Source: Devosia marina (GTDB lineage: Bacteria; Pseudomonadota; Alphaproteobacteria; Rhizobiales; Devosiaceae). From it: a DNA stretch of 64,000 nucleotides. How positions within the stretch are numbered: the first letter of the stretch is position 1; every line of letters starts with the position of its first letter. The position numbers were made by a program, and so were the translations under genes. This document shows positions 17,935 through 31,887 of the stretch, one piece after another. The notes beneath the pieces are model-generated. The model did no database searches. It saw nothing but the letters and a program-made list of their open reading frames with translations, and had not been told where the DNA came from. The stretch lies in assembly GCF_009758415.1 (NCBI RefSeq), contig NZ_WQRF01000002.1, forward strand, positions 1 to 64,000, given 5' to 3'.

Positions 17935-18684
17935 ATGACCATAACCGATCTGTGCCAGCTCATGCTGGTCGCAGGCGCGGCCGCCTATCTGCAGACTCTC
18001 ACTGGGTTTGCCTTTGGCCTGGTGATGATGGGCGCAGTAGCCCTCCTTGGCCTCACCTCCCTTGCAGACGCTGCAATTATCGTTGGCATCCTGTCAGTGG
18101 TGAACTCCATCCACATCCTCATCAGAGGCTGGCGGGATGTTGCCTGGCATGAATTCTGGCTGGTGGTCGGCCCGTCGCTTGCCGCAACGATCGTCGGCTA
18201 TGCGATGCTGGAAAGTGTCGCTGCTTCGAACCTCGCTGTCTTGCAACTTATCCTTGGGTGGGTGATCATCGCGGCCGCAGCCCAGCTGGTTTCAAAGCCC
18301 CAGCCTCTGAACATCAGGTCATCAGCGTCACGGTTCATTGTGGCCGGGGCAGCGGGCGGCCTTCTGGGAGGGCTTTTTGCCACGGCAGGGCCACCGCTGG
18401 TCTATTTATTCTATCGCCAGCCCATGGCGATCACGAGCATTCGGGTGACACTTGTCCTAGTGTTCGCGGTCGGGATCCTTTTTCGGACCACATTGGTCGT
18501 TGCGACGGGAGGCTTTCCCTTTGTCGCTGTGTTGTGGAGCTTGCTGGCGGTCCCAGTGATACTCGCCGCTACAGAGATCGCGCATCGATGGCCGCCCGCT
18601 ATGTCACCCAAATCCTTCCGCCGGCTGACATTCGGCCTTCTCCTCGCGTCAGGGCTCAGCCTGAGCCTGAAGGCGCTGATCTAG
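17935..18684 (+). CDS. TauE/SafE-family membrane exporter
   Basis: A 249-residue protein with about eight hydrophobic segments arranged in two repeats. The repeated motif typical of TauE/SafE is seen as LQTLTGFAFGLVMMG in the first half and AGAAGGLLGGLFATAGPPLVY in the second. Characterised members export sulfite, sulfoacetate or related anions after sulfonate breakdown, but the family is broad. It follows the nucleoside hydrolase by 70 bases in the same direction and may be the last gene of the regulon. If so, it is a weak hint of an organosulfur substrate. Confidence 0.85.
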   Translation: MTITDLCQLMLVAGAAAYLQTLTGFAFGLVMMGAVALLGLTSLADAAIIVGILSVVNSIHILIRGWRDVAWHEFWLVVGPSLAATIVGYAMLESVAASNLAVLQLILGWVIIAAAAQLVSKPQPLNIRSSASRFIVAGAAGGLLGGLFATAGPPLVYLFYRQPMAITSIRVTLVLVFAVGILFRTTLVVATGGFPFVAVLWSLLAVPVILAATEIAHRWPPAMSPKSFRRLTFGLLLASGLSLSLKALI

Positions 18685-19083
18685 CGGTCTCCTATATTAC
18701 GTTCAGACACCTCGCACTGAAACACACTTCAGCATTGCTTTCCCTGAGCATTGGGGTTGGCCCCAGTTGCTCTCCCGATACGCAAACCACGTAGCCAGCA
18801 TTTCAATAGCAGTCCCAAACGGTGCAGTAGCGGACCATCGTCGATGCGCGCCAAACTGGTCATTTATACAGTCCTTGCGCCCTGCCTATTGCCGTCGGTC
18901 CGCTTTGTTCGACTTCGATCACCGTTCTCTATGGGCCGTTGGGCAGATTGGTCGGCTCATTCGTCTCGGCGTTCTAGCGTGGGCCAGGCACGCCGTTCAC
19001 TATCGCGACCCCGCCGATTGCTTGGGTTAATCTTGACACGCGGCCAAGATTGAACATCGCCTCACAGATTGCGGCGAGACACC
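18685..19083. other. Intergenic region between convergent genes
   Basis: About 400 bases separate the TauE/SafE gene (+) from the DUF805 gene (-). Several short frames exist but none has a good start site, consistent codon use or a recognisable domain. No clear T-tailed hairpin was found for either flank. I see nothing that can be called a gene. Confidence 0.5.
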
Positions 19084-19479
19084 TCAATCCGGGTCATAGC
19101 CGAAGTCACGGTCGTCAAAGGATCTGTCAAAGGACTTGTCAAAGTGCGGTCCATCCGACGAGCGGTGCGAAACGCGTTCCCGGGCAGACTGCCCTGGCCA
19201 AAACAGCAAGATGAACAGGCAGAACAGATTCACGATTGGGACCAGACTGAGCAGGGCCCACCAGCCGCTACGGCCCAGATCATGCCATCTGCGCACCGTA
19301 AAGGACATTGCGACTAGCAAAGATAGCGCGGCCCACAGAAAAAGAGCGGCGTAGAGCCAGAATTCCGGGACGCCTATGCCGGACAGCAAGGCGACCACCA
19401 CATTGACTGCGGTTCCCGCAATCAGCAGACCGACGACCGCAAAGGCGAAGAAAAATCGTCCAATTCGACCCTTAAACAT
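19084..19479 (-). CDS. DUF805-family inner-membrane protein
   Basis: A 131-residue protein with three or four hydrophobic segments. The DUF805 hallmark RRWHDLGRSGWWALL is present around residues 63-77. A polar, Asp/Phe-rich tail of roughly 30 residues follows the last helix. DUF805 proteins (YhaH/YhaI type) have no established biochemical function. It is the last gene in the minus-strand cluster that begins with the LuxR regulator, 139 bases after the M50 protease gene, so it may be either a cluster member or an unrelated neighbour. Confidence 0.85.
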   Translation of the reverse strand: MFKGRIGRFFFAFAVVGLLIAGTAVNVVVALLSGIGVPEFWLYAALFLWAALSLLVAMSFTVRRWHDLGRSGWWALLSLVPIVNLFCLFILLFWPGQSARERVSHRSSDGPHFDKSFDRSFDDRDFGYDPD

Positions 19480-19618
19480 TGTTCCTCCAGATTGTGTGGG
19501 ATTATTGCCGCCGAAACCACTGGCAGTTGCAGGTTAGGTGTATTGGGGCAAACCAGTGCGGGCGCGGTGCGAGCGATCGCATCAAAAAGGGCGTGCCCGC
19601 CGATCTCTGCTAAAGGCA

Positions 19619-21565
19619 TCATGAACTGGCTATGCCCCTGGACAGCACCGAGCCCAGAGCCAACGCCATGCCGGCGACGATCCAAGGGGCGGTCGAAGTG
19701 CCGAGTTGGCTGGAGAACCAGCTACCGGCTGTCACCGCAATGACCAGATAGAAGAAGGCCGAGGTGAGCACGAGATGAAGCAGTGAGAGGCTGAACAGAA
19801 CTGCCAAACCGCGCAAATGCGCTGCAGCACGTGCCTGTCTGTTCCAGCAATCAACCAGGATTTGTCTCAGGGAGAGCTCTGGCGGCAGCGCCAGCAGGTT
19901 CCGCAGTGCCTGGGCGCCATCGTTCTGCCCATTTGGCGCCAAGGCCAACAGCGCCGTTCCGAAATTGACTGTCGACCAGACCCAAATGAAAGGCTGGAGG
20001 GGGCTCGCAGGGGCGTTGGCCGCGACGAGAGCGGCGATGCCCCCGAAGACAATATTTGCCAGTGGACCGGCCAGTGCCACCATCACCCGCTGCCCCGACG
20101 AGGCTATCCAGGTGTCGGACGTGTCCACATAGGCAATGGGATAGAACCAGAACACCCCGATGCCGATGCCGTGGACTGACAGGCCGAACGCCTTCATGGC
20201 CAAGATATGAGCGGCCTCGTGCAACGCCAATGATATGGCGAGAGCCAGAATGCCAGTCGCTAAGTATGGGAGATTCATACCGGTTGGAATGCTTGTCTGG
20301 GTGAGGGTGCTCAAGCCAGTCACCAGCCCAGCCAAGCCCAGGGCAGTCGCCACAATCACCGCAACGGGTCGGGTAACTATTGCGAAAGCTCGATAGAGGC
20401 TTTCGCTGAAATCATCTGCGGCCTGGCCGCGCAGGAGATCGAACGTTAGATAACCGCGACCTCGGCGTTCGGCCTGGCCCTCAAGAGGGCTATCGGATTG
20501 ACTGTCATGCCCCAGGGTTGCGAACCCCGAAGCGAGCAGTTGCTGCACGACGTTGATCACGCCCTGGGGCGAAAAAGTGCCAAACCGGCTCACGGCGCGG
20601 GCAATAATGGTTGTCAGGCGGGTAGAGCCATCCAATTGCTCCCATACGAAGGTTCCGAACTCGGATAGCTGGAAGTACTTGCGCAGCGTGGTGTGCTTGA
20701 GAACAGCAATGGCTTCTCCATCGTCACCCTTCCTGCGGTGCAACTCCACGTTCAGCGACTGTCGCGGGCGGATTCGCAAGGCGACCTGAGACTGAAGATG
20801 TTCGGTTCCCGGCGCCCGCGCGATACGCTCCAGTTGGGAGCGCGATATGGCCAAAACTTCACCGTCTTCCAGCGCAGTCACCGTTGCACGGCGCGGCTCA
20901 CCAGCCAGCAGTGAAACTTCTCCGACGAGAGATCCCGGACCAAGCACCGCAAGCTGTTGTTCGGCCGCAGGTGCCGGGCCCTTGTGGACCGAAAAGGTTC
21001 CAGAGTGGATCAGATAACAGGTGTCGCCTGGACGGCCTTCTTCTACCAGGGCTGTGCCGGTTTTGATCTTGCGCTGCTGAATCTTAGCCGCCAATTCCTG
21101 AAGGGCTGCGGGGCCGACCCCAGCAAACGGGGCCGCCCGCCTGAGCAACAACATGCGCTCACGCAATCCCTCATCCAGCTTGAGCGCGGGGGCGAGCGCA
21201 GAGGCAATGGCCGGATCGGCCAATGCGGCCGTGGGGACGCACAGGGTGGCGCATTCTTCGAGCGCAACAGCAGTCGAGGCGTATCGCCCAGCGCCTTCGG
21301 TTCGCAGACACTCCTCACCGGCGACGTCGGCAAAAGTCAAAAGCGCGATGGGGACGCGATCATCTTCAACCAGAACGCTTTCTTCGATCGTCCCCCAGAT
21401 CGGCAGATGCACAAGATTTGCTGGCTCTCCTTGGGAAAAAATCACCGCACCCGTGTCGTGGCCGCGCACCACCGTCTGTTCCGCGAGGTCCTTGAGTGTC
21501 GCAATCGGCAAGGTGCCGAAGAGATAGCTTTCGCGGAGCAGGTTGACCCGTTCTTCCTGAAACAT
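19619..21565 (-). CDS. Multidomain protein: two cNMP-binding-like domains, PqqD-like domain and M50 membrane metalloprotease
   Basis: A 648-residue protein. Residues 15-120 and 145-250 are two cyclic-nucleotide-binding-like beta barrels; the second keeps the phosphate-binding pattern GEVSLLAGEPRRAT (215-228), while the first is degenerate. Residues 285-348 form a small helical PqqD-like module, the type that recognises leader peptides in RiPP pathways. The C-terminal half has about six transmembrane helices with the M50 zinc motif HEAAH (449-453) and a downstream NDG (Asp549) as probable third zinc ligand. It should be an intramembrane or membrane-associated peptidase, possibly gated by a nucleotide. 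Its start abuts the polyprenyl synthetase stop, so the two are coupled. I infer it cleaves the three small peptides encoded just upstream. Confidence 0.82.
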   Translation of the reverse strand: MFQEERVNLLRESYLFGTLPIATLKDLAEQTVVRGHDTGAVIFSQGEPANLVHLPIWGTIEESVLVEDDRVPIALLTFADVAGEECLRTEGAGRYASTAVALEECATLCVPTAALADPAIASALAPALKLDEGLRERMLLLRRAAPFAGVGPAALQELAAKIQQRKIKTGTALVEEGRPGDTCYLIHSGTFSVHKGPAPAAEQQLAVLGPGSLVGEVSLLAGEPRRATVTALEDGEVLAISRSQLERIARAPGTEHLQSQVALRIRPRQSLNVELHRRKGDDGEAIAVLKHTTLRKYFQLSEFGTFVWEQLDGSTRLTTIIARAVSRFGTFSPQGVINVVQQLLASGFATLGHDSQSDSPLEGQAERRGRGYLTFDLLRGQAADDFSESLYRAFAIVTRPVAVIVATALGLAGLVTGLSTLTQTSIPTGMNLPYLATGILALAISLALHEAAHILAMKAFGLSVHGIGIGVFWFYPIAYVDTSDTWIASSGQRVMVALAGPLANIVFGGIAALVAANAPASPLQPFIWVWSTVNFGTALLALAPNGQNDGAQALRNLLALPPELSLRQILVDCWNRQARAAAHLRGLAVLFSLSLLHLVLTSAFFYLVIAVTAGSWFSSQLGTSTAPWIVAGMALALGSVLSRGIASS

Positions 21566-22609
21566 TCAGCCGGCTCCGGGACGCAAGAGATCTGCGGTCG
21601 TTCTGCTCTCGGAAAGCCTTGCACACATCCTCCGCCAAGCATCCGAACAAGGGAGTTGCCTCAGGGCTTCTTCGCTGCGCGCCAGATGAACCTGGGAGCG
21701 GAAACCAGCGAACAGCAAAGCTCCGGAGTCTACGATGCAGTCCCTCGCAGCCAGTTGCGCGGCACGGTCCGTTCGGGCGTGATCGAGCAAGCGCAACAGA
21801 TCTTCGCGGCCTATCCTGGAGTGCTTTAGCGCGAAGCCGACGGGGAGGGTTCGCGCTCCAGCCGCGAGGTCCCGCGACCAGTCTGGATCGAGCAGGTCCT
21901 GCATGTCGGAGCCCAATTGTCCTGCAACACCGATACCGTGCGCCCAGCCTGCCCAGAGTTCAGCGCAGGCCAAATCGCAGCCGGCATGCAGGGCTGCAAG
22001 GCGTGCATAGAGTCCCATCTGAGCACCGCTTTTGCCCGCAACCGATTCCTCGACAACGTCGAGATTGACGTTGGTGCCACCTATATTTTGAAGATCCAGG
22101 GCCTGCCCTTCGGCGATGTTCAATAGCCCGTCGCCCAAGGCATTGATCAAGGTGGCGCCGCGTTCCGCGCCGCCGGCTTGAAGCAGCAATTTCTGAGGCA
22201 ATGCCGATGGGAACGCGGCAGCGGCAAGCATCAGCGAGCTCTTGCTTGTTTCACCCCACCAGGGGCGTTGGTCGCCATCCTGCAGATCATCCAACAGGTC
22301 GAAACAAAGAAAGAGAAGCCCCGCCACGACGCTGATGGGTGCAGCATCGGCCGGATCCCCGCCATTGGCGCCATGAACGAGAAGCGGAATGAGCAAAGGC
22401 AGATGTGGCGGCCGAGCGGGCTGGAGGTGTTGATCCAGCGCCCCTTCCAGACAACCAAGCAACGGCTTCAACCCTTGGCCAAGGTTGCAGTCTTGCAGCA
22501 AATCTCTCAACTGCCTGACGCTCTGGTCCATGCTTGCGTGGACCTGTTCGGCGACGTCAGGGCAAGCGCGCTCGCAAAGGGTAGCAGCGGTCATGGCGAT
22601 CGGTGCCAC
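21566..22609 (-). CDS. Polyprenyl synthetase-family protein
   Basis: A 347-residue class I isoprenyl diphosphate synthase homologue. The first aspartate-rich motif is DDLQD (107-111), GQALDLQ follows at 168-174, KSGAQ at 193-197 matches the conserved Lys-Thr/Ser region, and the second aspartate motif is SDMQDLLD (234-241). The metal-binding residues look intact. Such enzymes make prenyl diphosphates; ComQ, a relative, instead prenylates the ComX peptide in Bacillus. It begins nine bases after a leader-like peptide gene and abuts the M50 gene, so peptide prenylation or provision of a prenyl donor is plausible but unproven. The start is GTG 22609; ATG 22594 is an alternative. Confidence 0.85.
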   Translation of the reverse strand: MAPIAMTAATLCERACPDVAEQVHASMDQSVRQLRDLLQDCNLGQGLKPLLGCLEGALDQHLQPARPPHLPLLIPLLVHGANGGDPADAAPISVVAGLLFLCFDLLDDLQDGDQRPWWGETSKSSLMLAAAAFPSALPQKLLLQAGGAERGATLINALGDGLLNIAEGQALDLQNIGGTNVNLDVVEESVAGKSGAQMGLYARLAALHAGCDLACAELWAGWAHGIGVAGQLGSDMQDLLDPDWSRDLAAGARTLPVGFALKHSRIGREDLLRLLDHARTDRAAQLAARDCIVDSGALLFAGFRSQVHLARSEEALRQLPCSDAWRRMCARLSESRTTADLLRPGAG

Positions 22610-22618
22610 CCCATGTGC

Positions 22619-22819
22619 CTAGCCACCAAAGCTGGCCTGGCGCAGGAGCTCTTCGTCGCCAGCGGTCAGGTCGAGCTTGTCGAGGGCCTGCATTTCCTCG
22701 TCCGACAGCTCATATCCTTCCTCCGCGAGCGTCGCTTGTGGCGCGGTCTGCATTCTTGCTCGGAACTCGGCGTCGCTCATCCAACGCTCAATTATGGTTT
22801 CGATCTGCGCTTGGCTCAC
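22619..22819 (-). CDS. NHLP-leader-like small peptide 1 (66 aa)
   Basis: A 66-residue acidic peptide beginning SQAQIETIIERWM, with FRARM, EEGYELSDEEMQALDKLDL and the C-terminus QASFGG. It is about 70% identical over its first 50 residues to peptide 2 and clearly related to peptide 3. The helix-rich pattern with a conserved DxxFRxRM, EEG and LxDEE matches nitrile-hydratase-like/Nif11-type RiPP leaders. It stops where such leaders normally end (GG), so there is no separate core with Cys, Ser or Thr. GTG is the start, eight bases after GAGAGGAG. The polyprenyl synthetase gene follows nine bases downstream. Confidence 0.8.
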   Translation of the reverse strand: MSQAQIETIIERWMSDAEFRARMQTAPQATLAEEGYELSDEEMQALDKLDLTAGDEELLRQASFGG

Positions 22820-22839
22820 TCTGTGGTCTCCTCTCATCC

Positions 22840-22878
22840 AGCCCCGCGAACCGCGGGGCTTCGCCTGCCCGAGCAGGC
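22840..22878 (-). other. Tandem stem-loops between two leader-like peptide genes
   Basis: AGCCCCGCG (22840-22848) and CGCGGGGCT (22852-22860) form a perfect 9-bp stem with a 3-base loop. GCCTGC (22863-22868) and GCAGGC (22873-22878) form a second 6-bp stem with a 4-base loop. Both lie in the transcribed gap between peptide 2 and peptide 1, and no T-run follows on the minus strand. They may limit readthrough or protect the upstream peptide message, producing more peptide 2 and 3 than downstream enzymes. Confidence 0.6.
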
Positions 22879-22902
22879 TGTGCAACACTCGCTCTTGAGC
22901 AT

Positions 22903-23103
22903 TTAGCCCGCGAAATTGGCCTGACGAACAAGGTCTTCACCGCTTCCCGAAAGGTCGAGCCGATCCAGAGCCTGCAATTCCTCATCCGACAGTTCATACC
23001 CTTCTTCCGCCACCGTCGCCTTGGGGGCGGCCCGCATTCTTTCGCGGAATGCGGCGTCGTTCATCCAACGCTCAATTATGGTCTCGATCTGCGCTTGGCT
23101 CAT
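22903..23103 (-). CDS. NHLP-leader-like small peptide 2 (66 aa)
   Basis: A 66-residue peptide starting SQAQIETIIERWM and ending RQANFAG. It shares with peptide 1 the motifs DxxFRERM, AEEGYELSDEELQALD and LDL, and has an ATG start preceded by a strong GGGAGGGGG ribosome site. It has one Trp (residue 13), no Cys and no hydrophobic core segment. The conserved N-terminal half looks like a leader recognised by a PqqD-type domain. The short C-terminal tail ending Asn-Phe-Ala-Gly is the only region that could serve as a product. Confidence 0.82.
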   Translation of the reverse strand: MSQAQIETIIERWMNDAAFRERMRAAPKATVAEEGYELSDEELQALDRLDLSGSGEDLVRQANFAG

Positions 23104-23185
23104 TGTTGCCCCCTCCCCAGGGTCCAGGTTTTATCGGTCGCGCCAGTATTTCTCGGGTCCAGCTGTGCCTGGCTCAACACCGCCT

Positions 23186-23383
23186 TCAGGCGAAATTGGC
23201 CATACCGGCCAGTTCGTCATCCGATTGGTTGAGGTCGAGCGCAGCCAGGGCCCGCTGCTCTTCGTCATCAAGAACGAACCCCTCTTCCTGAGCGGTCTGA
23301 ACCGGCGCCGAGCGCATGCGGTCGCGAAAAGCCTTGTCTTCCATCCATCTTGCGATCAATGCCTCGACTTGTTGGCTCGCCAT
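23186..23383 (-). CDS. NHLP-leader-like small peptide 3 (65 aa)
   Basis: A 65-residue peptide, the most divergent of the three. It keeps the Arg-Trp-Met at residues 12-14, DKAFRDRM, EEGFVLDDEEQRALAALDL and ends GMANFA. An excellent GGGAGGAGGG precedes the ATG. It is the first of three in-line paralogues, separated by 82-83 bases, which implies duplication within the operon. All three share an ASF/ANF near the C-terminus, suggesting this tail matters for processing or function. Confidence 0.82.
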   Translation of the reverse strand: MASQQVEALIARWMEDKAFRDRMRSAPVQTAQEEGFVLDDEEQRALAALDLNQSDDELAGMANFA

Positions 23384-23422
23384 GACAGTCCCTCCTCCCT
23401 TGCTTGTGCCGGATCTTTCTGG

Positions 23423-23776
23423 TCAGGATTTCTGGTCGACTATCTTGAGCTCTGCGGCGACCATGCGAAGATCGCGGTCTTGCCAGCTCAGCGAATAGGC
23501 GATCTGAAAAACTCCCTCGGCGCCGGTGTCGATAAGCGCGCTGCACTGGCGCTGCTGGGCCGCCTTGTCGAAGCTAATCTCCTCGACCTCATCAAGCTGA
23601 TCGAGTTGCACATCAAAGTTCTCGTCGATGATCTGGCTGACAAGCCGGGCAGCGTCCTCGCTCTCGCACTGGGGTAACTGCACTCCACCGAAGAGTCCGC
23701 TGGCGATCTGGATCATGCTCGCGATCCCGATCACCGCGCTCGCCACCGCGACAACAATCTTGACAGCGTTGTTCAT
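23423..23776 (-). CDS. Small membrane-anchored or secreted protein of unknown function
   Basis: A 117-residue protein with a hydrophobic N-terminal segment (residues 5-30) serving as a signal anchor or signal peptide, followed by a polar domain rich in Asp, Gln and Glu with two cysteines (37 and 78). I do not recognise the family. The ATG overlaps the TAA of the ankyrin gene (TAATG), so the two are co-translated and probably act in the same compartment. Peptide 3 follows 39 bases later. A role at the cell envelope, such as display or immunity, is speculation. Confidence 0.7.
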   Translation of the reverse strand: MNNAVKIVVAVASAVIGIASMIQIASGLFGGVQLPQCESEDAARLVSQIIDENFDVQLDQLDEVEEISFDKAAQQRQCSALIDTGAEGVFQIAYSLSWQDRDLRMVAAELKIVDQKS

Positions 23777-24513
23777 TATTGCCCGCCCCACGGTCGGAAT
23801 TCGTTGGTGCAGGCGGTCACGTGGCCATTGACGCAGCTTTCGTGGCACATGGAGCACTGCGTCATGCAGCTGTAGTCGGTCACCCACTGGAAGTTCCCGG
23901 TGAAATAGCCGCAGGTGCTCTGGCAGGATGTATACATCTGCTCGCAGGTCTTTGGCGCTTCGGAGGTCGCCGCTTCCCACGCAGTGGTATCCTGCCCGCT
24001 GGAGAAGAATTCAGAGATTGCCTGGCAATCAGCGACATCGGTGCTCGGTTCACACAACCCGGTTCCGATCTCGGGTTCGTCGCACTCCCCGTCGTTCACA
24101 TATGGGCAAGTTGGGGCAGAAGCGGCGCCGATGTCGGCCGCCGCGCCCTGTGTCGCGGTCACCGTGCCTGTCAGCGCATATTCAATGTCTTCATAGCCAT
24201 GAAGACGGGCAAGGTCCGCCGCGGTATATCCGCTGTCGTCAACCGCGTAGCGGTCGGCACCCAGTTGCAACAATAGCTGAACCGTTTGCAGGCACTCTCC
24301 AAATGCCGCGTTGATCAGCGGTGTATGGCCTCCGGTGCTGCGCGCTTCTATGCTGACACCGCGGTTCAACAGTTCCAGTGTCGTGACGCTGTCACAGGAA
24401 CGCGCGGCGTCCAGCAGTTGCATTTCTTCGATTGTGGCCGACCGGGCCGGAACAACCATGATCATGATTGCCAGAGCCATCGTTGTCAGCCAGCCAAGTA
24501 CCGCCCGCACCAT
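23776..24513 (-). CDS. Secreted ankyrin-repeat, cysteine-rich protein
   Basis: A 245-residue protein with a signal peptide (cleavage near ARS-A, residue 25), then about three ankyrin repeats (residues 28-115; HTPLINAAFGECLQTVQLLL and GYTAADLARLHGYEDI are clear). A Cys-rich C-terminal part follows: it includes CPYVNDGECDEPEIGTGLC, a disulfide motif seen in secreted bacterial proteins, and then four CxxxC-like clusters. It is presumably periplasmic or outer-surface and disulfide-bonded. It lies first after the LuxR regulator and is coupled to the small anchored protein, so it probably belongs to the peptide system, perhaps as a partner or protective factor. Confidence 0.8.
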   Translation of the reverse strand: MVRAVLGWLTTMALAIMIMVVPARSATIEEMQLLDAARSCDSVTTLELLNRGVSIEARSTGGHTPLINAAFGECLQTVQLLLQLGADRYAVDDSGYTAADLARLHGYEDIEYALTGTVTATQGAAADIGAASAPTCPYVNDGECDEPEIGTGLCEPSTDVADCQAISEFFSSGQDTTAWEAATSEAPKTCEQMYTSCQSTCGYFTGNFQWVTDYSCMTQCSMCHESCVNGHVTACTNEFRPWGGQ

Positions 24514-24642
24514 CCCCCCAATGCTTCGTGTCGTTGGATCTTGTGGGCCAGCTAGGCCTCCGAGCTATCGAAGCATGGCGAAACCTGTCTCGAAAGTGTC
24601 GTTTGCGACACCTGAGTGTGGGGCGCGCGCCGACGTGGAATC

Positions 24643-25389
24643 CTAGATCTTCAGCAGACCGGCAGCGATTGCCTTGGCAACGGCTTGCACCCGCGTCTTC
24701 ACGTCCAGCTTCGCCATCGCGGAACCGACATGTTTGCGAACAGTCCGCTCGGTTATCCCCAATATGAGGGCGATCTCCTCGGACGTCTTGCCATAGGCGG
24801 ACCAGCGCAGCGTCTCAAGTTCACGCTCGCTTAGGGGCGCATCCGCTGCCAGTTCCTGAGCAGCAAGTTCTTCGGACCGCTGATGGGCAAGAAGCGCGAC
24901 GAGCGAAATGCTGGCCATGACACCGAACTTTTTTTGCTCCCATAGGTCAGCGGGAAGCGCGGTGGCAGCGCTCACCATGCCAAAGCGCCCAAAGGGCGAG
25001 TGCATTGGCACCACGATACCTTTTTTGAACGGAAACATGGTTTCCATTTCCTGCTGCTCGGGCAGCAGCGGTGGTGTGCAAAACACGTCCTCGAAAAAGA
25101 ATGGCGTGACGCGCACCAGTCCAGCAGTCACCAGCCGGTCAGTGCGCTGATATCCGCGTTCGACATAGCGCTGTAACCAGGCGGGATCCATATTGGTCCA
25201 AAAGCGCTCCACCGTTGGACCTTCGCCAGCCACCATGCGACCAGCACCGTAATTGTATGTTCCAACATCCAGTGACCTCATGGCCGCTGCGAACTTCGCC
25301 TCAAGCGCGCTTTGATCTGACGCGGCGCGGATCTCGCAGAAAAACTTCTCGATCAATTTCGCCTGACTTATCCATAATAACAGCGCCAC
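24643..25389 (-). CDS. LuxR-family quorum-sensing-type transcriptional regulator
   Basis: A 248-residue protein with an N-terminal autoinducer-binding-like domain (about residues 10-165; conserved Trp/Tyr residues in FWTNMDPAWLQRY and PFGRFG) and a C-terminal LuxR/GerE helix-turn-helix (185-245; LSERELETLRWSAYGKTSEE and ITERTVRKHVGSAMAKL). No LuxI synthase is in the window, so it may be a solo receiver. It is the first gene of a co-directional set leading to the leader-like peptides, separated from the next gene by 129 bases. The start is GTG at 25389 with no strong ribosome site, so the true start is uncertain. Confidence 0.88.
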   Translation of the reverse strand: MALLLWISQAKLIEKFFCEIRAASDQSALEAKFAAAMRSLDVGTYNYGAGRMVAGEGPTVERFWTNMDPAWLQRYVERGYQRTDRLVTAGLVRVTPFFFEDVFCTPPLLPEQQEMETMFPFKKGIVVPMHSPFGRFGMVSAATALPADLWEQKKFGVMASISLVALLAHQRSEELAAQELAADAPLSERELETLRWSAYGKTSEEIALILGITERTVRKHVGSAMAKLDVKTRVQAVAKAIAAGLLKI

Positions 25390-26064
25390 CGCGCTAACAG
25401 ATCTATCGCATAGCTATCTATATACTGTTTCCAGTCATGCTTAAGGATGCCGAGCGTGGCTATCAGCGCCCTTGGTTACCCAGGACACTGGAACAACCGC
25501 GCAGCACGGATCATCGCAGCGGTTGCACGGCCGAACGGTCGGCCAGGCGCAGTAATCAACGATACAGTGCGGCTGACCTGGGGTTCGATCAAGGGGGCGT
25601 TGGAGCAGGTCCGGCAGTGTGACCGAACATTCGGGCATGAAAACAAAACCGATTCTCGCCAGAACCATTGTACTGTGCCGCCCAAGCTCGGCCCCGTTCG
25701 TTCCCCAGACTTTGCCGGCGAAGCACTTACGGGCGAAGTCTGCCCATGCCGTTGGCCGGATTTGGACCATTCGTATCACCCGTCTCCGCCCGACAACGTC
25801 TGCGATGCAATCAAGATCAAGGGTAGCTATTCGCCCGTCAGCGCTAAACAGTTGCCAGTCAGCAAGCGGCCCCCTTATGGTCATTAGCCGAGCTCGGTGG
25901 AAGGCAGATTAGGGGCCGTTTTCTGCCGGTCTCCTTCTGATAATGGAGCTTCGAATAGCGGCGCTTATTCAGTTTGTGCCTAATCCTCAGATCCGCCCAA
26001 AGATTTTGGCTAGGTTCAGTGCATTCTTGTGCCGCCTGACGCCTCGAGAGGAGGTTTACGGGAT
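25390..26064. other. Intergenic region with no confident gene
   Basis: About 675 bases between the LuxR gene and the end of the peptide-type ABC operon. Overlapping frames of about 146 codons exist on both strands (25441-25887), but neither has a recognised domain, a convincing ribosome site or typical codon use. The stretch 25390-25440 is A/T-rich and probably contains the promoter of the LuxR operon. A degraded gene is possible. Confidence 0.5.
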
Positions 26065-26091
26065 GGAACAGTGGGGAAGACCTCCCGTTCC
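26065..26091 (-). terminator. Possible terminator hairpin of the Dpp-type operon
   Basis: GGAAC (26065-26069) pairs with GTTCC (26087-26091), and GGG/CCC pairs inside it, giving a bulged stem just downstream of the last ATPase stop codon (26097). There is no obvious U-run, so termination efficiency is uncertain. Confidence 0.4.
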
Positions 26092-26096
26092 GTTCG

Positions 26097-26930
26097 CTAG
26101 GCGATCTTTGCCATGATGATCTTGCGCGCGGCTTCCGGATCCGGTGGCAGCACCGCTTGGCTCAGCGCCTTTGAATAGGCGTGCTGCGGGTTCCCCAGCA
26201 CCTCTTGCGCCACGCCGGACTCAACCACATCACCCTTGTACATGATGATCACACGGTCGGAAATGTAATAGGCCGTCGAGAGGTCATGGGTGATGTAGAT
26301 GATCGATACGCCCAGCCGATCCCGCAGGTCACGGAAGAGATTGACGATAGACATGCGCAGGGATGCATCGACCATGGAGACCGGCTCGTCGGCGACAATC
26401 AGCTTAGGCTCGGGGATCAGCGCCCGCGCCACGGCGATGCGCTGCAATTGCCCGCCTGACAGCTCGTGCGAATAGCGTCCGCGCACTTCGGCCAGCGACA
26501 GACCCACGTGATGAAGAGCCTTGTCGGTCGCCGCGTCAATTGCGGCCTTGTCTCGCAGGCCCAGGAACCGCCTGGCAGTCGAGAACAGAAAATAGTCGAT
26601 GGTGCTCAGCGGATTGAACGCCTCGAACGGGTTCTGAAAAATCGGCTGCGCCTTGGACATGAACTTGAGTTTACCGGCGCGGCTGCGGATCGCGGTAATG
26701 CTTTGCCCCATGAAGCGCAAGCTGCCGCTGGTGGGCGTTTCATTGCCCAGGATCATGCGCGCTGTTGTCGTCTTGCCACTGCCGGATTCGCCTACAATGG
26801 TGAAGATCTCCGGCTTGCTGTCATCCAAGGTGAAGCTGACATTCTTGACTGCGTGCAACGTGGAGCTGTCGAAGAAACCGCCAATCCGGTAGTCCTTGTT
26901 GACATTCCTGAGTTCCAGAAGTGCGCTCAT
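26097..26930 (-). CDS. Oligopeptide/oligosaccharide-type ABC transporter ATP-binding protein (DppF-like)
   Basis: A 277-residue ATPase with Walker A GESGSGKTTT, signature LSGGQLQR, Walker B LIVADEPVSMVD and the switch ITHD. It is the DppF/OppF-like partner in a five-gene importer. ATG 26930 overlaps the stop of the upstream ATPase. The operon lies divergent from a GH39 glycosidase and pentose-oxidation genes, so the cargo is more likely a xyloside or oligosaccharide than a peptide. Confidence 0.9.
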   Translation of the reverse strand: MSALLELRNVNKDYRIGGFFDSSTLHAVKNVSFTLDDSKPEIFTIVGESGSGKTTTARMILGNETPTSGSLRFMGQSITAIRSRAGKLKFMSKAQPIFQNPFEAFNPLSTIDYFLFSTARRFLGLRDKAAIDAATDKALHHVGLSLAEVRGRYSHELSGGQLQRIAVARALIPEPKLIVADEPVSMVDASLRMSIVNLFRDLRDRLGVSIIYITHDLSTAYYISDRVIIMYKGDVVESGVAQEVLGNPQHAYSKALSQAVLPPDPEAARKIIMAKIA

Positions 26931-27943
26931 GCGGTCTGCACCTCCCCGGCGCGCCAGCATGCGACGCGGCCAGTCAGCCGCGCCTCCAGTGGCGGGTTTT
27001 CATTTGTGCATTTGTCCACGGCCAGCGGGCAACGTGGATGGAAGCGGCAGCCGCTCGGCGGATCGGCCAGATTGGGTGGCTTGCCCGGCAGGGCGCTGCG
27101 TTTCTTGTTGTCGCCAATGCGCGGCAGGCTCGAAATCAGATGCGCGGTATAGGGATGTTGCGGGCGCCGAAACACATCAAGTGTGGGGCCCTCCTCGACC
27201 AGTCGACCAGCATAGACAATGCCGATCCGGTCGGCGATGGCGGCATGCACGGTCATGTCATGGGTCACGAAGATTATCGAAGCCCCCATGCGTTGCTGGA
27301 TATCCTTGATCAGCGCCAGAACATCCTGCTGTACCAGCACGTCAAGCGCGGTGGTGGGTTCGTCAGCGATGATGAAGTCAGGTTCGCAAACCGTCGCAAG
27401 CGCGATGGTCAGGCGCTGGCGCATGCCGCCCGACAGCTGGTGCGGAAAGGATTCGAGCACATGCGGGTCCAGACCGATGCGCTGAAGATGCTTTTCCACC
27501 CGCGCCCGGAATGCGGATGGCGACAATCCCATATGCTTGAAGGCAAAATCGTGAAAGGCGTGCTTCACACGGCGCACCGGATTGAGCACATTCATCGAGC
27601 CTTGCATTATGTAACTCAAATTCTGCCAGCGTGCCGCCTTCATGGCCTGCGGATCCGCATAGACATCGAGCTCGCGCCCCGCAAAGTCGAACTTGACCGA
27701 TCCTTCCACCACCCGCAGAGGCGGCGTGATAGCGCCGGCAATGGTCTTGATCAACGAGGATTTACCGGACGAAGATTCACCGGCAATGCCGTAGATTTCA
27801 TTGCGGTTGATCGTCAGGCTTACATCGTCGACGGCCCTAACTTCGCGACGCACGCCGAAATAGTTCATCTGATAATAGGCCTTGAGGCCTTCGACCCGCA
27901 GCATGGAACTGGTGGTGGTCGGTGCCTGGAGAGTATCGAGCAT
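26927..27943 (-). CDS. Oligopeptide/oligosaccharide-type ABC transporter ATP-binding protein (DppD-like)
   Basis: A 338-residue ATPase with Walker A GESSSGKSS, signature LSGGMRQR and Walker B FIIADEPTTALD. The C-terminal extension has the Cys-containing CRFHPRCPLAVDKC motif typical of DppD/OppD subunits, which can hold an iron-sulfur cluster. It partners with the downstream ATPase and the two permeases to energise import. The start ATG is two bases after the permease stop. Confidence 0.9.
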   Translation of the reverse strand: MLDTLQAPTTTSSMLRVEGLKAYYQMNYFGVRREVRAVDDVSLTINRNEIYGIAGESSSGKSSLIKTIAGAITPPLRVVEGSVKFDFAGRELDVYADPQAMKAARWQNLSYIMQGSMNVLNPVRRVKHAFHDFAFKHMGLSPSAFRARVEKHLQRIGLDPHVLESFPHQLSGGMRQRLTIALATVCEPDFIIADEPTTALDVLVQQDVLALIKDIQQRMGASIIFVTHDMTVHAAIADRIGIVYAGRLVEEGPTLDVFRRPQHPYTAHLISSLPRIGDNKKRSALPGKPPNLADPPSGCRFHPRCPLAVDKCTNENPPLEARLTGRVACWRAGEVQTA

Positions 27944-27945
27944 GA

Positions 27946-28803
27946 TCAGGCTCCCATCCGGCTCAGGCGGCTACGCGGATCGATATATTCATTAACCGAT
28001 ATGGCGAGCAGGAAGAGGCCGAGAAACAATAGGACGACGGCGATGATGGGGAAGGCAATCCACCACCAGATGCCGGCGATAATGGCTTGGTGTTGATTGG
28101 CCCAATAGATCATGCCGCCAATGGTCGGGCGGTTGATGTCCGAGAATCCCAGAACTGACAGGGTGACCTCGAGGCCGATGGCCCAGATCAGATTGTTCAT
28201 TGCCGTAAAGAAGATAACCGGCATCACATAGGGCAGATGCTGGCGCACCAGGATTTGCGGTACGCTCATGCCTGCAAAGACGGCGTGGCGGGTGAACTCA
28301 CGATTGCGCAAGCTCAGTGTGACCGAGCGAATCAGGCGCGCATCATAATTCCAGCCCAGTAGGGCCGCCGTCGCGGCCAGAACCGGCCAGCTCATGCTGT
28401 CGCGCATGACGAAATAGACCAGCAGCAGAATGGGGATATTGGGCAGGGCAATCATCGTGTCATTCAGGGTCATCAGCGCCTGGTCCCAGCGGCCACCGAG
28501 ATAGCCCGAAAGCATGCCTACAGCGACTGCCAGCAAGCGGCTGAGGACGGTGACGGTGAGACCGAACAGCATGGTATTCCAGATTGCCGAGCTCATCTGC
28601 CAGAGCACGTCCTGGCCACGCGAGGTGGTGCCAAACCAGTATTGGGCCGATGGCGGCATATCTGGCGGCAGGAGATAAATGGCGGTGTCCGGGAGCGGCG
28701 CCCAGAAATGGGCAAGCGCGAACAGGAAGATGGATAGGGTCAGTACGAAGCCGATGGCGAATTCGATATTGTAGCGCAGCATGTCGCGCAGGATCTTGAA
28801 CAT
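27946..28803 (-). CDS. ABC transporter permease (DppC-like)
   Basis: A 285-residue inner-membrane protein with an N-terminal helix, an extracytoplasmic loop that includes GTTSRGQDVL, and about five further helices. The GTxxxGxDVL motif is typical of DppC/OppC permeases. It forms the pore with the 28807-29811 permease, and the stop and start codons of the pair are three bases apart. Confidence 0.9.
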   Translation of the reverse strand: MFKILRDMLRYNIEFAIGFVLTLSIFLFALAHFWAPLPDTAIYLLPPDMPPSAQYWFGTTSRGQDVLWQMSSAIWNTMLFGLTVTVLSRLLAVAVGMLSGYLGGRWDQALMTLNDTMIALPNIPILLLVYFVMRDSMSWPVLAATAALLGWNYDARLIRSVTLSLRNREFTRHAVFAGMSVPQILVRQHLPYVMPVIFFTAMNNLIWAIGLEVTLSVLGFSDINRPTIGGMIYWANQHQAIIAGIWWWIAFPIIAVVLLFLGLFLLAISVNEYIDPRSRLSRMGA

Positions 28804-28806
28804 GGC

Positions 28807-29811
28807 TCAGCTCAGCCTCACGCGCGGATCGATCAGCGGATAGATCAGATCGATGATGAACACTGCAACGGCGACGGCGATGATCGAAATGGTGGTCACC
28901 CCGAGCACCAGGGCATAGTCGCCCCGATAGATGCCCTGGATCATCAGCCGGCCGACACCGGGATAGTTGAACAGAAATTCGGTGATCACCGCCCCGCCAA
29001 AGACATTGCCCAGGCTCAGCGCCAGGCCCGTCAATTGCGGCAGCAGCGCATTGCGCGCCACATACTGCGAGAAGATCTTGTTAGAGGACACTCCGCCGAG
29101 TTCAGCATAGACCACGTGATCATCGGTGACGATGTTGGAGACCAGTGAGCGCATGGAAATGAACCAACTGCCCAGCCCCACCAGGACCAGGGTCAGTGCC
29201 GGCAGGGTGCCATGCACGATCAGCGACCGCAGATAGTCGAGGGTCAGCCCGGGCTGCAAATTCATCTGCGCGCCGCCCGATATGGGCAGGATCGGCCAGA
29301 TGAACCCGAAGGCCAGCAGCAGACAGAGCCCGATGATATAGGCGGGCACTGGATGCAGGGCCATGACGGCAGCGCCGGAGAGCTTCAAGAGCAGATTGGA
29401 GCGATAGTAGCCCGCCAGCGCGCCGAGCAGATTGCCCAGGGTCCAGGTGATCACCAGCGACAGGGTGAGCAGACCAATGGTCCAGGGCAGCGCGCTCATG
29501 ATCAGGGACATGACTGGGGTGGGAAAGGCAGACAGGGACGGCCCGAAATCTCCTCGGATGACGCGGCCCCAAAACGCCAGATACTGATCCAGCATCGAGC
29601 CTTGCAGACCATAAAGTTCCTGGAGTGCCTGTCGCATCAGTTCGACCGAGCGGGGGTCAGTAGCGCCGAAATTGGTCATCAGGGCGACTGACTGCTCCAC
29701 CGGATCGACCGGCGAGAGGTTGGTGATCAGGAAGGCCAGCGAAACGCCCAGGAAAATCACAAGGAAAAACTGGAAGAGGCGCCGGCCGAGATATTTGGCA
29801 AAGCCGTCCAT
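28807..29811 (-). CDS. ABC transporter permease (DppB-like)
   Basis: A 334-residue permease with about six transmembrane helices. It begins YLGRRLFQFFLVIFLGVSL and has the family feature FNYPGVGRLM near residue 285. With the DppC-like partner it forms the translocation channel. It follows the binding-protein gene by 63 bases in the same operon. Confidence 0.9.
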   Translation of the reverse strand: MDGFAKYLGRRLFQFFLVIFLGVSLAFLITNLSPVDPVEQSVALMTNFGATDPRSVELMRQALQELYGLQGSMLDQYLAFWGRVIRGDFGPSLSAFPTPVMSLIMSALPWTIGLLTLSLVITWTLGNLLGALAGYYRSNLLLKLSGAAVMALHPVPAYIIGLCLLLAFGFIWPILPISGGAQMNLQPGLTLDYLRSLIVHGTLPALTLVLVGLGSWFISMRSLVSNIVTDDHVVYAELGGVSSNKIFSQYVARNALLPQLTGLALSLGNVFGGAVITEFLFNYPGVGRLMIQGIYRGDYALVLGVTTISIIAVAVAVFIIDLIYPLIDPRVRLS

Positions 29812-29874
29812 CTGGGGTCCGCTCTCGTGGATAGGGTGAGAACCGGGCGGGGCCTGATGCCCCGCCCGCAGGCA

Positions 29875-31764
29875 CTATTGGGCGGCCTTGAGCGCAACAA
29901 TCATGTAGCGCAGGTTCGACCAGAACGGCCCCGAAGCCGAATAGGGATCAGCGGCGCTCGGATAGCCGGTCCAGTAGGTCGTGTCGAACGGCGCGAACTT
30001 GTTGTAGGCCATCAGCGGAATGAACGGCATCTCTTCCACGGCCAGCTTGAGATAGTCCATGCCGAGCTGGGCCACTTCGGGCGAGTCGAAGTTCACCGTA
30101 CGGTTGGCTTCGATGATCGCGTCGAGCCGCTCGTCTTCCCAGCGCGTCAAGTTACGCGGCGGCTGCGTTTCACCGGGCTGCTTGATGAAGTCCGAGTGAT
30201 AGCTTTCCAGGAAGAAGGAGAGATCGGGATGACCACCCCAGGTCTCTACTGTCCAGTAGATGGCGACATCGAAGTCACCGCCGCCCAGACGCTGGCCATT
30301 GGTGGGGCCTGCCACATCGACCGTGGTCTGGATGCCTTCCATCGACCATTGCTGGGCGATGATGGTGCCGGCACGCGCCAGAGTGGGGATATTGTCACCC
30401 TCGACCATCAGCTTAATGGTGAACGGGGTGCCATCCGGCTTGAGCCACTGATTGCCATTCTTGGAGAAACCGGCTTTCTGCAGCAGGGCGGTAGCGGCAG
30501 CGGGATCCTGCTTCCACCAGCCGAACCCAAACATGCGCTTGAGCTCTTCGGTATCGCTGGGAATGCTGTCGCCCCATTGCGGCTTCACCAACGCTGCGAT
30601 CTGTTCCGAGATGGTCGGATCATAGGGCTTGATGGCGCCATCGCCGGTATCGAGCTCAAAATTGGCGAGCCAGTCCTGCATCGGCACGTAATAATCGGTA
30701 ATGGCCGTACCGGTCGGCGGGGTTGAAAGCGCTGCCAGATTGGCCGCGCCGCGATAGGATCCCATCGAGACCGAGCGGATATCGATCAACAGCGCCAGTG
30801 CCCAACGCACATCCTTGTCTGCAAACGGTTCGCGCTGATGATTGAACAGCACCGATGGCAGCGTCGGATCGGGGTGGGCGAAGGGGAAGCCCGGGAACCA
30901 GTACTTGGTATTTTCGCCAGCATCGCGGGCAATGGTGAACATGCCTTCGGGAGCGATGTCGTTGATCACGTCGAGATTGTGGTTCATCTGCTCGATCACG
31001 CGAGCATCCGGATTACCGGCATTGCGATAGACCACGTATTTGACCTCCGGCGCCTCACTCAGCGTCATGCCAATCGAGGTGCGCTCCCAGTCATCGCGCA
31101 GCTTCCAGATCACCCAATTGCCAGCCGAGTCATAGCTGTGAAGCTGATAGGCCGACAGGGATACGGGCGGATTGTTGTTATAGGTCAACGGATCCTCGAC
31201 CTGCTCGAACACATGCTTGGGCATGATCCAGGCGGCATTCCAGCGCACGGTGAAGAGCGTGTGGAAACGCGAATTGGGAGCGTTGAGCGTAAAGACCACC
31301 GTATTGCGGTCGGTCGCCTCGACGCTCTCCACATTGACGGTGAAAGGTGCGCTCCAGCCCATGCCCGGATTGGCCATCTGGGTTTGCACAGTGTAGACGA
31401 CGTCGTCCGCCGTGAACTCGACGCCGTCGCTCCAATAGATGCCCTCCTTGAGCTTCACCGTCATTTCGGTGAAATCCTCATTATAGATCGGCTTGTCTGA
31501 GGCCAGGGCATTGGTCCAGGCCGCATCGCCTGTGCCGTCCGGATTAATGAACCAGAACGTGTCGGCAGTGAGCTGCTGCAAGCCGTTATTGCTGGCGCCA
31601 CCGCCCGGGGCCCACAAATTGAACCACTCGGCATTCTGCGCCGCGGGCCCCTGAATGATCAGCGCCTCTTCGCGGGGAATACCCGCGATAAAATCCTGGG
31701 CGGCAACCGGCATCACCGTCGCGGCGATTGCAAATGCAGCTGCGGCCAGCTTCTTCAATAGCAT
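29875..31764 (-). CDS. ABC transporter substrate-binding protein, family 5 (Opp/Dpp-type)
   Basis: A 629-residue periplasmic binding protein. Residues 1-22 form a signal peptide ending VAA, and AGGAGGA precedes ATG 31764. The mature part follows the family 5 fold: WSDGVEFTADDVVYT and YNEDFTEMTVKLKEGIYWSDG are typical. Family 5 proteins bind oligopeptides, but related ones in sugar clusters bind oligosaccharides. The nearby GH39 gene favours a xyloside or similar plant sugar. Confidence 0.9.
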   Translation of the reverse strand: MLLKKLAAAAFAIAATVMPVAAQDFIAGIPREEALIIQGPAAQNAEWFNLWAPGGGASNNGLQQLTADTFWFINPDGTGDAAWTNALASDKPIYNEDFTEMTVKLKEGIYWSDGVEFTADDVVYTVQTQMANPGMGWSAPFTVNVESVEATDRNTVVFTLNAPNSRFHTLFTVRWNAAWIMPKHVFEQVEDPLTYNNNPPVSLSAYQLHSYDSAGNWVIWKLRDDWERTSIGMTLSEAPEVKYVVYRNAGNPDARVIEQMNHNLDVINDIAPEGMFTIARDAGENTKYWFPGFPFAHPDPTLPSVLFNHQREPFADKDVRWALALLIDIRSVSMGSYRGAANLAALSTPPTGTAITDYYVPMQDWLANFELDTGDGAIKPYDPTISEQIAALVKPQWGDSIPSDTEELKRMFGFGWWKQDPAAATALLQKAGFSKNGNQWLKPDGTPFTIKLMVEGDNIPTLARAGTIIAQQWSMEGIQTTVDVAGPTNGQRLGGGDFDVAIYWTVETWGGHPDLSFFLESYHSDFIKQPGETQPPRNLTRWEDERLDAIIEANRTVNFDSPEVAQLGMDYLKLAVEEMPFIPLMAYNKFAPFDTTYWTGYPSAADPYSASGPFWSNLRYMIVALKAAQ

Positions 31765-31887
31765 GGTTGTTCCTCCTGAAGCCCGCAAAGCGGACAGCGC
31801 GCATCCGGGCAACTGCCCCGGATTCGTCGCATCCCTCGTTCCGACACGAGAACGCACAACTCCTCCAGCGCCCTCGGTCGAGTTCCT

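Follow-up and report, generated by a model that had tools for sequence, protein, structure and literature searches.

An Os1348-type precursor module in Devosia that may attach a terpene group to peptide tails and then free them

Does a peptide that resembles a RiPP leader, with hardly anything behind it, act as a carrier, or is its short tail the product? The question is raised by three tandem minus-strand open reading frames (ORFs) in a 64,000-nt stretch of Devosia marina DNA, referred to here as the window. The original prediction described them as leader-like peptides that stop at the leader cleavage point, and proposed either leader-only carriers acting in trans or a C-terminal tail that is itself the product. 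The ORFs, together with the sequence motifs and C-termini quoted for them, were verified: precursor peptide A (23186-23383, minus strand) has 65 amino acids, an ATG start and the tail end ANFA; peptide B (22903-23103, minus strand) has 66 amino acids, an ATG start and the tail end ANFAG; and peptide C (22619-22819, minus strand) has 66 amino acids, a GTG start and the tail end ASFGG. A six-frame search of the window gives three occurrences of the motif RWM.D..FR.RM, as many as the three peptide ORFs should give. Membership of the Os1348/NHLP clan also stood up to analysis, but the stop at the cleavage point did not, and we favour the tail as product over leader-only carriers.

Comparison with profiles of NHLP-clan families, which had been suggested as a check, gave a divided answer. 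All three peptides score above the NCBIfam cut-off of 40 bits for NF038399, 'Os1348 family NHLP clan protein' (C 59.6, B 58.6 and A 49.2 bits), whereas they fall below the thresholds of three other models: the NHLP leader TIGR03793 (20.3, 20.2 and 14.2 bits against a curated 50.9), the Nif11-like leader TIGR03798 (B 22.9 and A 25.1 bits against a curated 32.3, with no listed match for C) and Frankia_peptide PF14407 (42.9, 41.9 and 28.5 bits against a gathering score of 48). Judged by family profile, all three ORFs encode RiPP precursors of the Os1348/NHLP clan. The NF038399 match stops at residues 51-53, with the domain ending near residue 51, and 13-15 residues remain beyond it, at odds with the statement that nothing follows the leader. 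NHLP leaders in other genomes show an LS.E.L.A helix, then GG and then the core; the corresponding helix in the Devosia peptides is formed by residues 39-48, which places their tail after the leader and not at its end. The GG with which the leaders were said to end is present in only one of the three peptides, at the very end of C. Elsewhere, an alphaproteobacterial genome contains a run of seven NHLP-type precursor matches (L032, G361:C1:1019244-1023715), and the ORFs inspected at that locus consist of a leader, GG and a short core.

Invariant columns among the three paralogues number 30 of 66 and include 27 of the 51 in the domain, one of ten at residues 52-61 and two of four at residues 62-65. 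The question of whether the tail is the conserved or the variable part thus has a mixed answer, as a variable linker leads to a short conserved motif at the C-terminus, A-[N/S]-F-[A/G], which is suggestive but, coming from three paralogues only, not significant. The peptides carry a net charge of -7 to -10, contain neither Cys nor His and have a single Trp each (W13); no hydrophobic segment was found in any of the three, and their residues 52-66 are devoid of Trp as well as of Cys.

An AlphaFold2 (AF2) model of peptide B, computed from six sequences, has a mean pLDDT of 80 and five helices (residues 3-15, 17-25, 27-34, 40-48 and 55-62), with the last four residues (NFAG) free of any helix. Its best match in the PDB is Os1348 (6lk7; Z 5.8, r.m.s.d. 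2.5 Å, 57 aligned residues), ahead of the borosin precursor SonA (Z 5.3, r.m.s.d. 2.6 Å, 52 aligned residues), the dioxygenase DesB (Z 3.8), a proteusin precursor (Z 3.7) and nitrile hydratase (Z 2.2). Foldseek E-values are weak (best 0.45) and modest evidence alone, and Z scores below 13 can be common among helical bundles; even so, the top structural matches of the predicted model are the families anticipated from sequence. A stable unrelated fold, named at the outset as a finding that would overturn the leader reading, is absent: the model shows the fold to be expected of a leader.

Short tails behind such a domain have precedents. The five-helix domain of SonA is described as residues 1-53, followed by a linker and then the core (PMC8429565); the last six residues of Os1348 are reported as disordered in the crystal (PMC7726476); and the core of PalX is given as eight residues (PMC10853753). 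A short-tailed precursor therefore has precedent in the clan, which makes 'nothing follows' incorrect. Of the two alternatives originally offered, the tail as product fits best, with its 14-15 residues and the NFAG end free in the model. Residues 1-51 would form a helical domain for docking, with the substrate part in the final 14-15 residues, a division that is well supported, although not proven. Leader-only carriers acting in trans, by contrast, received no positive support, and the module contains no recognisable long-core precursor.

What decides between product and carrier is the pair of adjoining enzymes, whose genes lie just outside 22619-23383, the interval of the original prediction, and were missed by it. 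On the minus strand, the order is LuxR, ankyrin, 117-aa protein, peptides A, B and C, synthetase-like protein, PqqD-M50 protein and DUF805. The first gene of the module encodes a LuxR-type regulator with an autoinducer-binding domain (24643-25389, minus strand; PF03472 and PF00196), and the next an ankyrin-repeat protein (23776-24513, minus strand; PF12796 and PF13637) whose N-terminus carries a hydrophobic segment and whose C-terminus is rich in Cys. The latter overlaps by one base with the gene of a 117-aa protein (23423-23776, minus strand) that has one N-terminal hydrophobic segment and no assigned family. After the peptides come a trans-isoprenyl-diphosphate-synthase-like protein (21566-22609, minus strand; 347 amino acids from a GTG start, or 342 from an ATG at 22594; PF00348) and a protein of 648 amino acids (19619-21565, minus strand) that combines two cyclic-nucleotide-binding domains (PF00027) with a PqqD-type, RRE-like domain (PF05402) and an M50 intramembrane metalloprotease (PF02163). 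A DUF805 membrane protein (19084-19479, minus strand; PF05656) marks the end of the module. By coordinates, 9 nt separate the stop of peptide C from the GTG of the synthetase-like gene, and 0 nt separate the latter from the protease gene. Strong purine-rich ribosome-binding sites lie before the starts of all three peptides and are, by eye, stronger than those of the enzymes. No Rfam match was found in 18600-26100, and promoter and terminator scans of the locus gave scores no better than shuffles. PADLOC matches are confined to the cyclic-nucleotide-binding and ankyrin parts. A full LuxI-type gene is located elsewhere in the genome (C26:4106-4621), with none found in the window stretch of the contig that bears the module. 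Genes of a dipeptide/oligopeptide-type ABC transporter lie upstream of the module on the same strand (26097-31857), outside the block held in common with Devosia subaequoris.

The synthetase-like protein is a remote member of its family, scoring 38 bits against the PF00348 cut-off of 27. Alignment to solved synthases sets DDLQDGD on the first Asp motif, with DDLQD (residues 107-111) intact, and the second Asp motif, DDxxD, reads SDMQD, with S234 in place of the first Asp. K193, Q231, D235 and D238 are kept, the IPP-binding motif GGKRxRP is absent anywhere in the protein, and the GK after the second Asp motif is missing. All of 31 housekeeping synthases from 30 genomes (one each, plus a second from D. 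marina) differ from it in the IPP motif, the second Asp motif and the GK, with the qualification that the local match of the housekeeping profile covers residues 164-324 only, so that the N-terminal alignment is uncertain and the comparison there is one of motif absence. This reading of the active site comes from alignment to remote relatives, and the AF2 model of the protein reaches a pLDDT of only 38. A retained allylic-diphosphate site combined with a lost IPP site fits the transfer of a prenyl group to an acceptor other than IPP, and two further PF00348 genes elsewhere in the D. marina genome, which presumably serve primary metabolism, can supply prenyl donors. An intact first Asp motif with an altered second motif and IPP site is the ComQ/PalQ-type pattern, and it is found here; the Trp acceptor in the core that goes with this type is not. 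We infer a putative peptide prenyltransferase of ComQ/PalQ type that would prenylate the tail.

All domains of the 648-aa protein score above their gathering thresholds, with PF00027 matching twice, PF05402 at 26.7 bits (cut-off 23.4) and PF02163 at 36.3 bits (cut-off 27.2). HEAAH and NGQNDG are intact, and five hydrophobic segments are found in the C-terminal half. A PqqD-type domain joined to intact M50 motifs is the combination by which we recognise an RRE-bearing RiPP protease, and the PqqD-type domain within the protease suggests that the protein binds the precursor; binding and cutting are thus putative activities. The PqqD-M50 part scores 93 bits with the daptide biosynthesis protease model NF041824, far below the curated 300, and 31.7 bits with the YydH/LiaK protease model NF058609, likewise far below the cut-off of 225. 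For the second cyclic-nucleotide-binding domain (residues 150-280), models of a family-2B encapsulin shell and of Pycsar TIR outscore the CRP model, although these models come from different libraries. As relatives of both enzymes included encapsulin-system models, kinship with encapsulin systems was considered; it was rejected, the scores being far below the cut-offs.

The module is present in two Devosia soil bacteria, D. marina and D. subaequoris. By blastn, the 6.7 kb from 18846 to 25552 are 94.6% identical in DNA to D. subaequoris, and all nine genes stand in identical order; there is no match between the two outside this block, and the flanks differ. The left flank is conserved in two other Devosia genomes up to 18686-18692, where synteny stops. 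The differing flanks and this break point to a mobile or variable unit. No plasmid matches were obtained for three queries, and no viral contig matched. By tblastn, peptide B is 97% identical in D. subaequoris and peptide C 98%, its sole difference being the GTG start, and the DUF805 protein is identical. The three peptide genes differ between the species by 15 synonymous and 7 non-synonymous changes (pooled pN/pS about 0.13). Peptide A shows a pN of 0.033 and a pS of 0.313, and peptide C, unchanged apart from its start codon, is uninformative for selection. Ratios for the LuxR, ankyrin, 117-aa, synthetase-like and protease genes range from 0.05 (LuxR) to 0.24, and that of DUF805 is 0. Synonymous change per site exceeds non-synonymous change in eight of the nine module genes, the ninth being the unchanged peptide C. 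As judged from these sequence comparisons, the peptides and the module are under purifying selection between the two species.

Beyond this pair the module is rare. The peptides occur in 2 of 75 genomes of the genus and in 2 of 101 relatives, and a search with the peptide alignment of genome contigs from 84,980 species returned D. subaequoris only (1 relative among 99 pattern matches; the patterns were narrow, and distant relatives are possible). Long-core homologues, which would have meant truncation here, were not found; the only close relatives, those of D. subaequoris, bear the same tails. Across the class, NF038399 matches 52 of 385 genomes at E 1e-4, with only D. marina above the cut-off, and most of the sub-threshold matches that we inspected, labelled by eye, are either alpha subunits of nitrile hydratase or NHLP leaders followed by GG and a core. 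At E 1e-15 the PqqD-M50 part is found in 1 of 385 class genomes, that of D. marina itself; at E 1e-6 it is found in 85 of 398 phylum genomes, mostly in proteins of ~700 amino acids, the best besides D. marina being a partial match at 2e-15 and 30% identity. The synthetase-like protein has matches in 5 of 327 order genomes, which are the two module holders and three weak 28-bit matches. This rarity is the chief weakness of the case: with only two near-identical modules, conservation of the tail part and co-variation of tail and enzyme lack distant homologues to compare. Open-access literature searched for the parts and for their combination gave no description of this module, which is weak evidence of absence, and no paper there combined 'polyprenyl synthetase', RiPP and M50.

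Among characterised systems, PalX/PalQ of Paenibacillus alvei, as described in PMC10853753, is by analogy the closest known logic to the Devosia module. It likewise joins an NHLP-type precursor that has a short C-terminal core to an adjoining enzyme of the isoprenoid-synthase superfamily, and in both enzymes a Gln stands three residues before a changed second Asp motif (Q197 and D200 in PalQ, Q231 and S234 in Devosia; the equivalent positions in PalQ are occupied by Q197, D200 and D204). The shared Gln is not diagnostic, as housekeeping synthases have it too. According to the same account, PalX ends in Trp and PalQ takes Trp only, rejecting other residues substituted for it, whereas the Devosia tails are without Trp and the first Asp is Ser. 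The cluster of PalQ is described there with a histidine kinase and no protease, in contrast to the PqqD-M50 protein, three precursors and LuxR-type regulator in Devosia. ComQ/ComX of Bacillus, compared by description, is likewise trans-IDS-like with an intact first motif and an altered second one; its acceptor is an internal Trp, and an Os1348-type domain is not described for ComX in what PMC10853753 and PMC13290415 say of it. The Os1348 cluster OS3 of Pseudomonas sp. Os17, as presented in PMC7726476, has the precursor family NF038399 and the helical fold in common with Devosia, but its acetyltransferase, gluzincin-like peptidase and SagB-type dehydrogenase are all lacking from the Devosia module. 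The split borosin pair SonA/SonM offers a similar fold of five-helix docking domain, linker and short core, but the partner SonM is reported to be an N-methyltransferase (PMC8429565), and none was recognised in the Devosia module. The YydH/LiaK and daptide proteases, which according to their NCBIfam names mature other RiPPs, are of M50 type like the Devosia protein, which differs from them in being fused to a PqqD domain and a pair of cyclic-nucleotide-binding domains. CaaX processing is alike in logic only, in its order of prenylating a C-terminus and then cutting at the membrane.

We propose a pathway for which we see an even balance of probabilities, in which Os1348-type precursors are prenylated on the tail by the synthetase-like enzyme and then cut at the membrane by the PqqD-M50 protein. 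The synthetase-like enzyme would most likely take a prenyl group supplied by the cell's own synthases and pass it to the tail of the peptide; the PqqD-M50 protein would most likely use its PqqD (RRE-like) domain to recognise the peptide, which it would cleave at the membrane, and its cyclic-nucleotide-binding domains may gate the cleavage. The released lipopeptide, which would be exported, might act as a signal or as an antibiotic, a role at which the LuxR-type regulator heading the module weakly hints. In favour of this pathway we count the family membership, the tail beyond the domain, the fold, the motif pattern, the gene spacing, the available donors, the PqqD and M50 domains, the conserved block, the purifying selection on its genes and the precedent of PalX/PalQ. 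Against it we count that precedents are limited to Trp whereas the tails are Trp-less, that the only Trp (W13) is in helix 1, that tail conservation comes from three paralogues, that the active site is read from a remote alignment and that the peptides have no hydrophobic segment. The last point bears on a tentative elaboration, which we regard as possible rather than probable, that prenylation of the tail falls on a residue that is neither Trp nor Cys and that the lipid anchor presents the peptide, in a CaaX-like manner, to a cyclic-nucleotide-gated intramembrane protease bearing a recognition domain; a prenyl group would account for how peptides without a hydrophobic segment gain access to such a protease. 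With tails that lack Trp and a Ser for the first Asp, the tail as acceptor would be a new acceptor.

The same genes can be read in other ways. It is somewhat unlikely that the tail belongs to RiPP precursors processed by the PqqD-M50 protein and that the synthetase-like enzyme makes a separate free terpenoid or prenyl diphosphate, or modifies the product later. The isoprenoid-synthase superfamily is described as including terpene cyclases (PMC13290415), the FARM and D235/D238 are kept, and the best NCBIfam relative of the enzyme is the family-2 encapsulin cargo polyprenyl transferase NF041169 (49.7 bits against a curated 450); however, loss of the IPP-binding motif speaks against chain elongation, and the gene sits between peptides and protease with almost no spacing. 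We consider it improbable that the peptides act in trans as uncut carriers or regulators, helical scaffolds that bear a built-on group or regulate the enzymes. The short tail, the self-contained bundle fold of the AF2 model and the stable dimer reported for Os1348 (PMC7726476) agree with such a role, but one of the operon's genes codes for a protease that bears an RRE-like domain, the module shows no recognisable separate core peptide, and a search of the genome for a PEARL-type Lant_dehydr_N gene found none, although its control was equally silent.

Were the acceptor instead Trp13, as Trp is in ComX and PalX, the tail would be a recognition handle only. Enzymes of this class are known to modify Trp and no other residue: according to a 2026 review (PMC13290415), every characterised trans-IDS-like peptide prenyltransferase acts on it. 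W13 is invariant in all six sequences. We nevertheless think this very improbable: in the AF2 model W13 is inside the helical domain, a Trp at the matching place in nitrile hydratase alpha subunits makes it look structural, and the first Asp of the second motif, which together with the Gln recognises indole in the network proposed in that review, is Ser here. A decaying or non-functional gene island, to which the rarity of the peptides might point, is hardly credible against open frames, strong peptide ribosome-binding sites, purifying selection across the module and intact catalytic motifs.

Prenylation of the tail followed by cleavage at the membrane remains the reading that we carry forward, and the module has the look of a pathway not yet characterised, in which the peptide tails may receive a terpene group before being cut free. 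Should the enzyme indeed modify the tail, this would be the first case of a non-Trp acceptor among trans-IDS-like peptide prenyltransferases, given the Trp-only record in the review (PMC13290415). If true, the pathway would combine RiPP recognition, lipidation, intramembrane proteolysis and cyclic-nucleotide control in one small operon.
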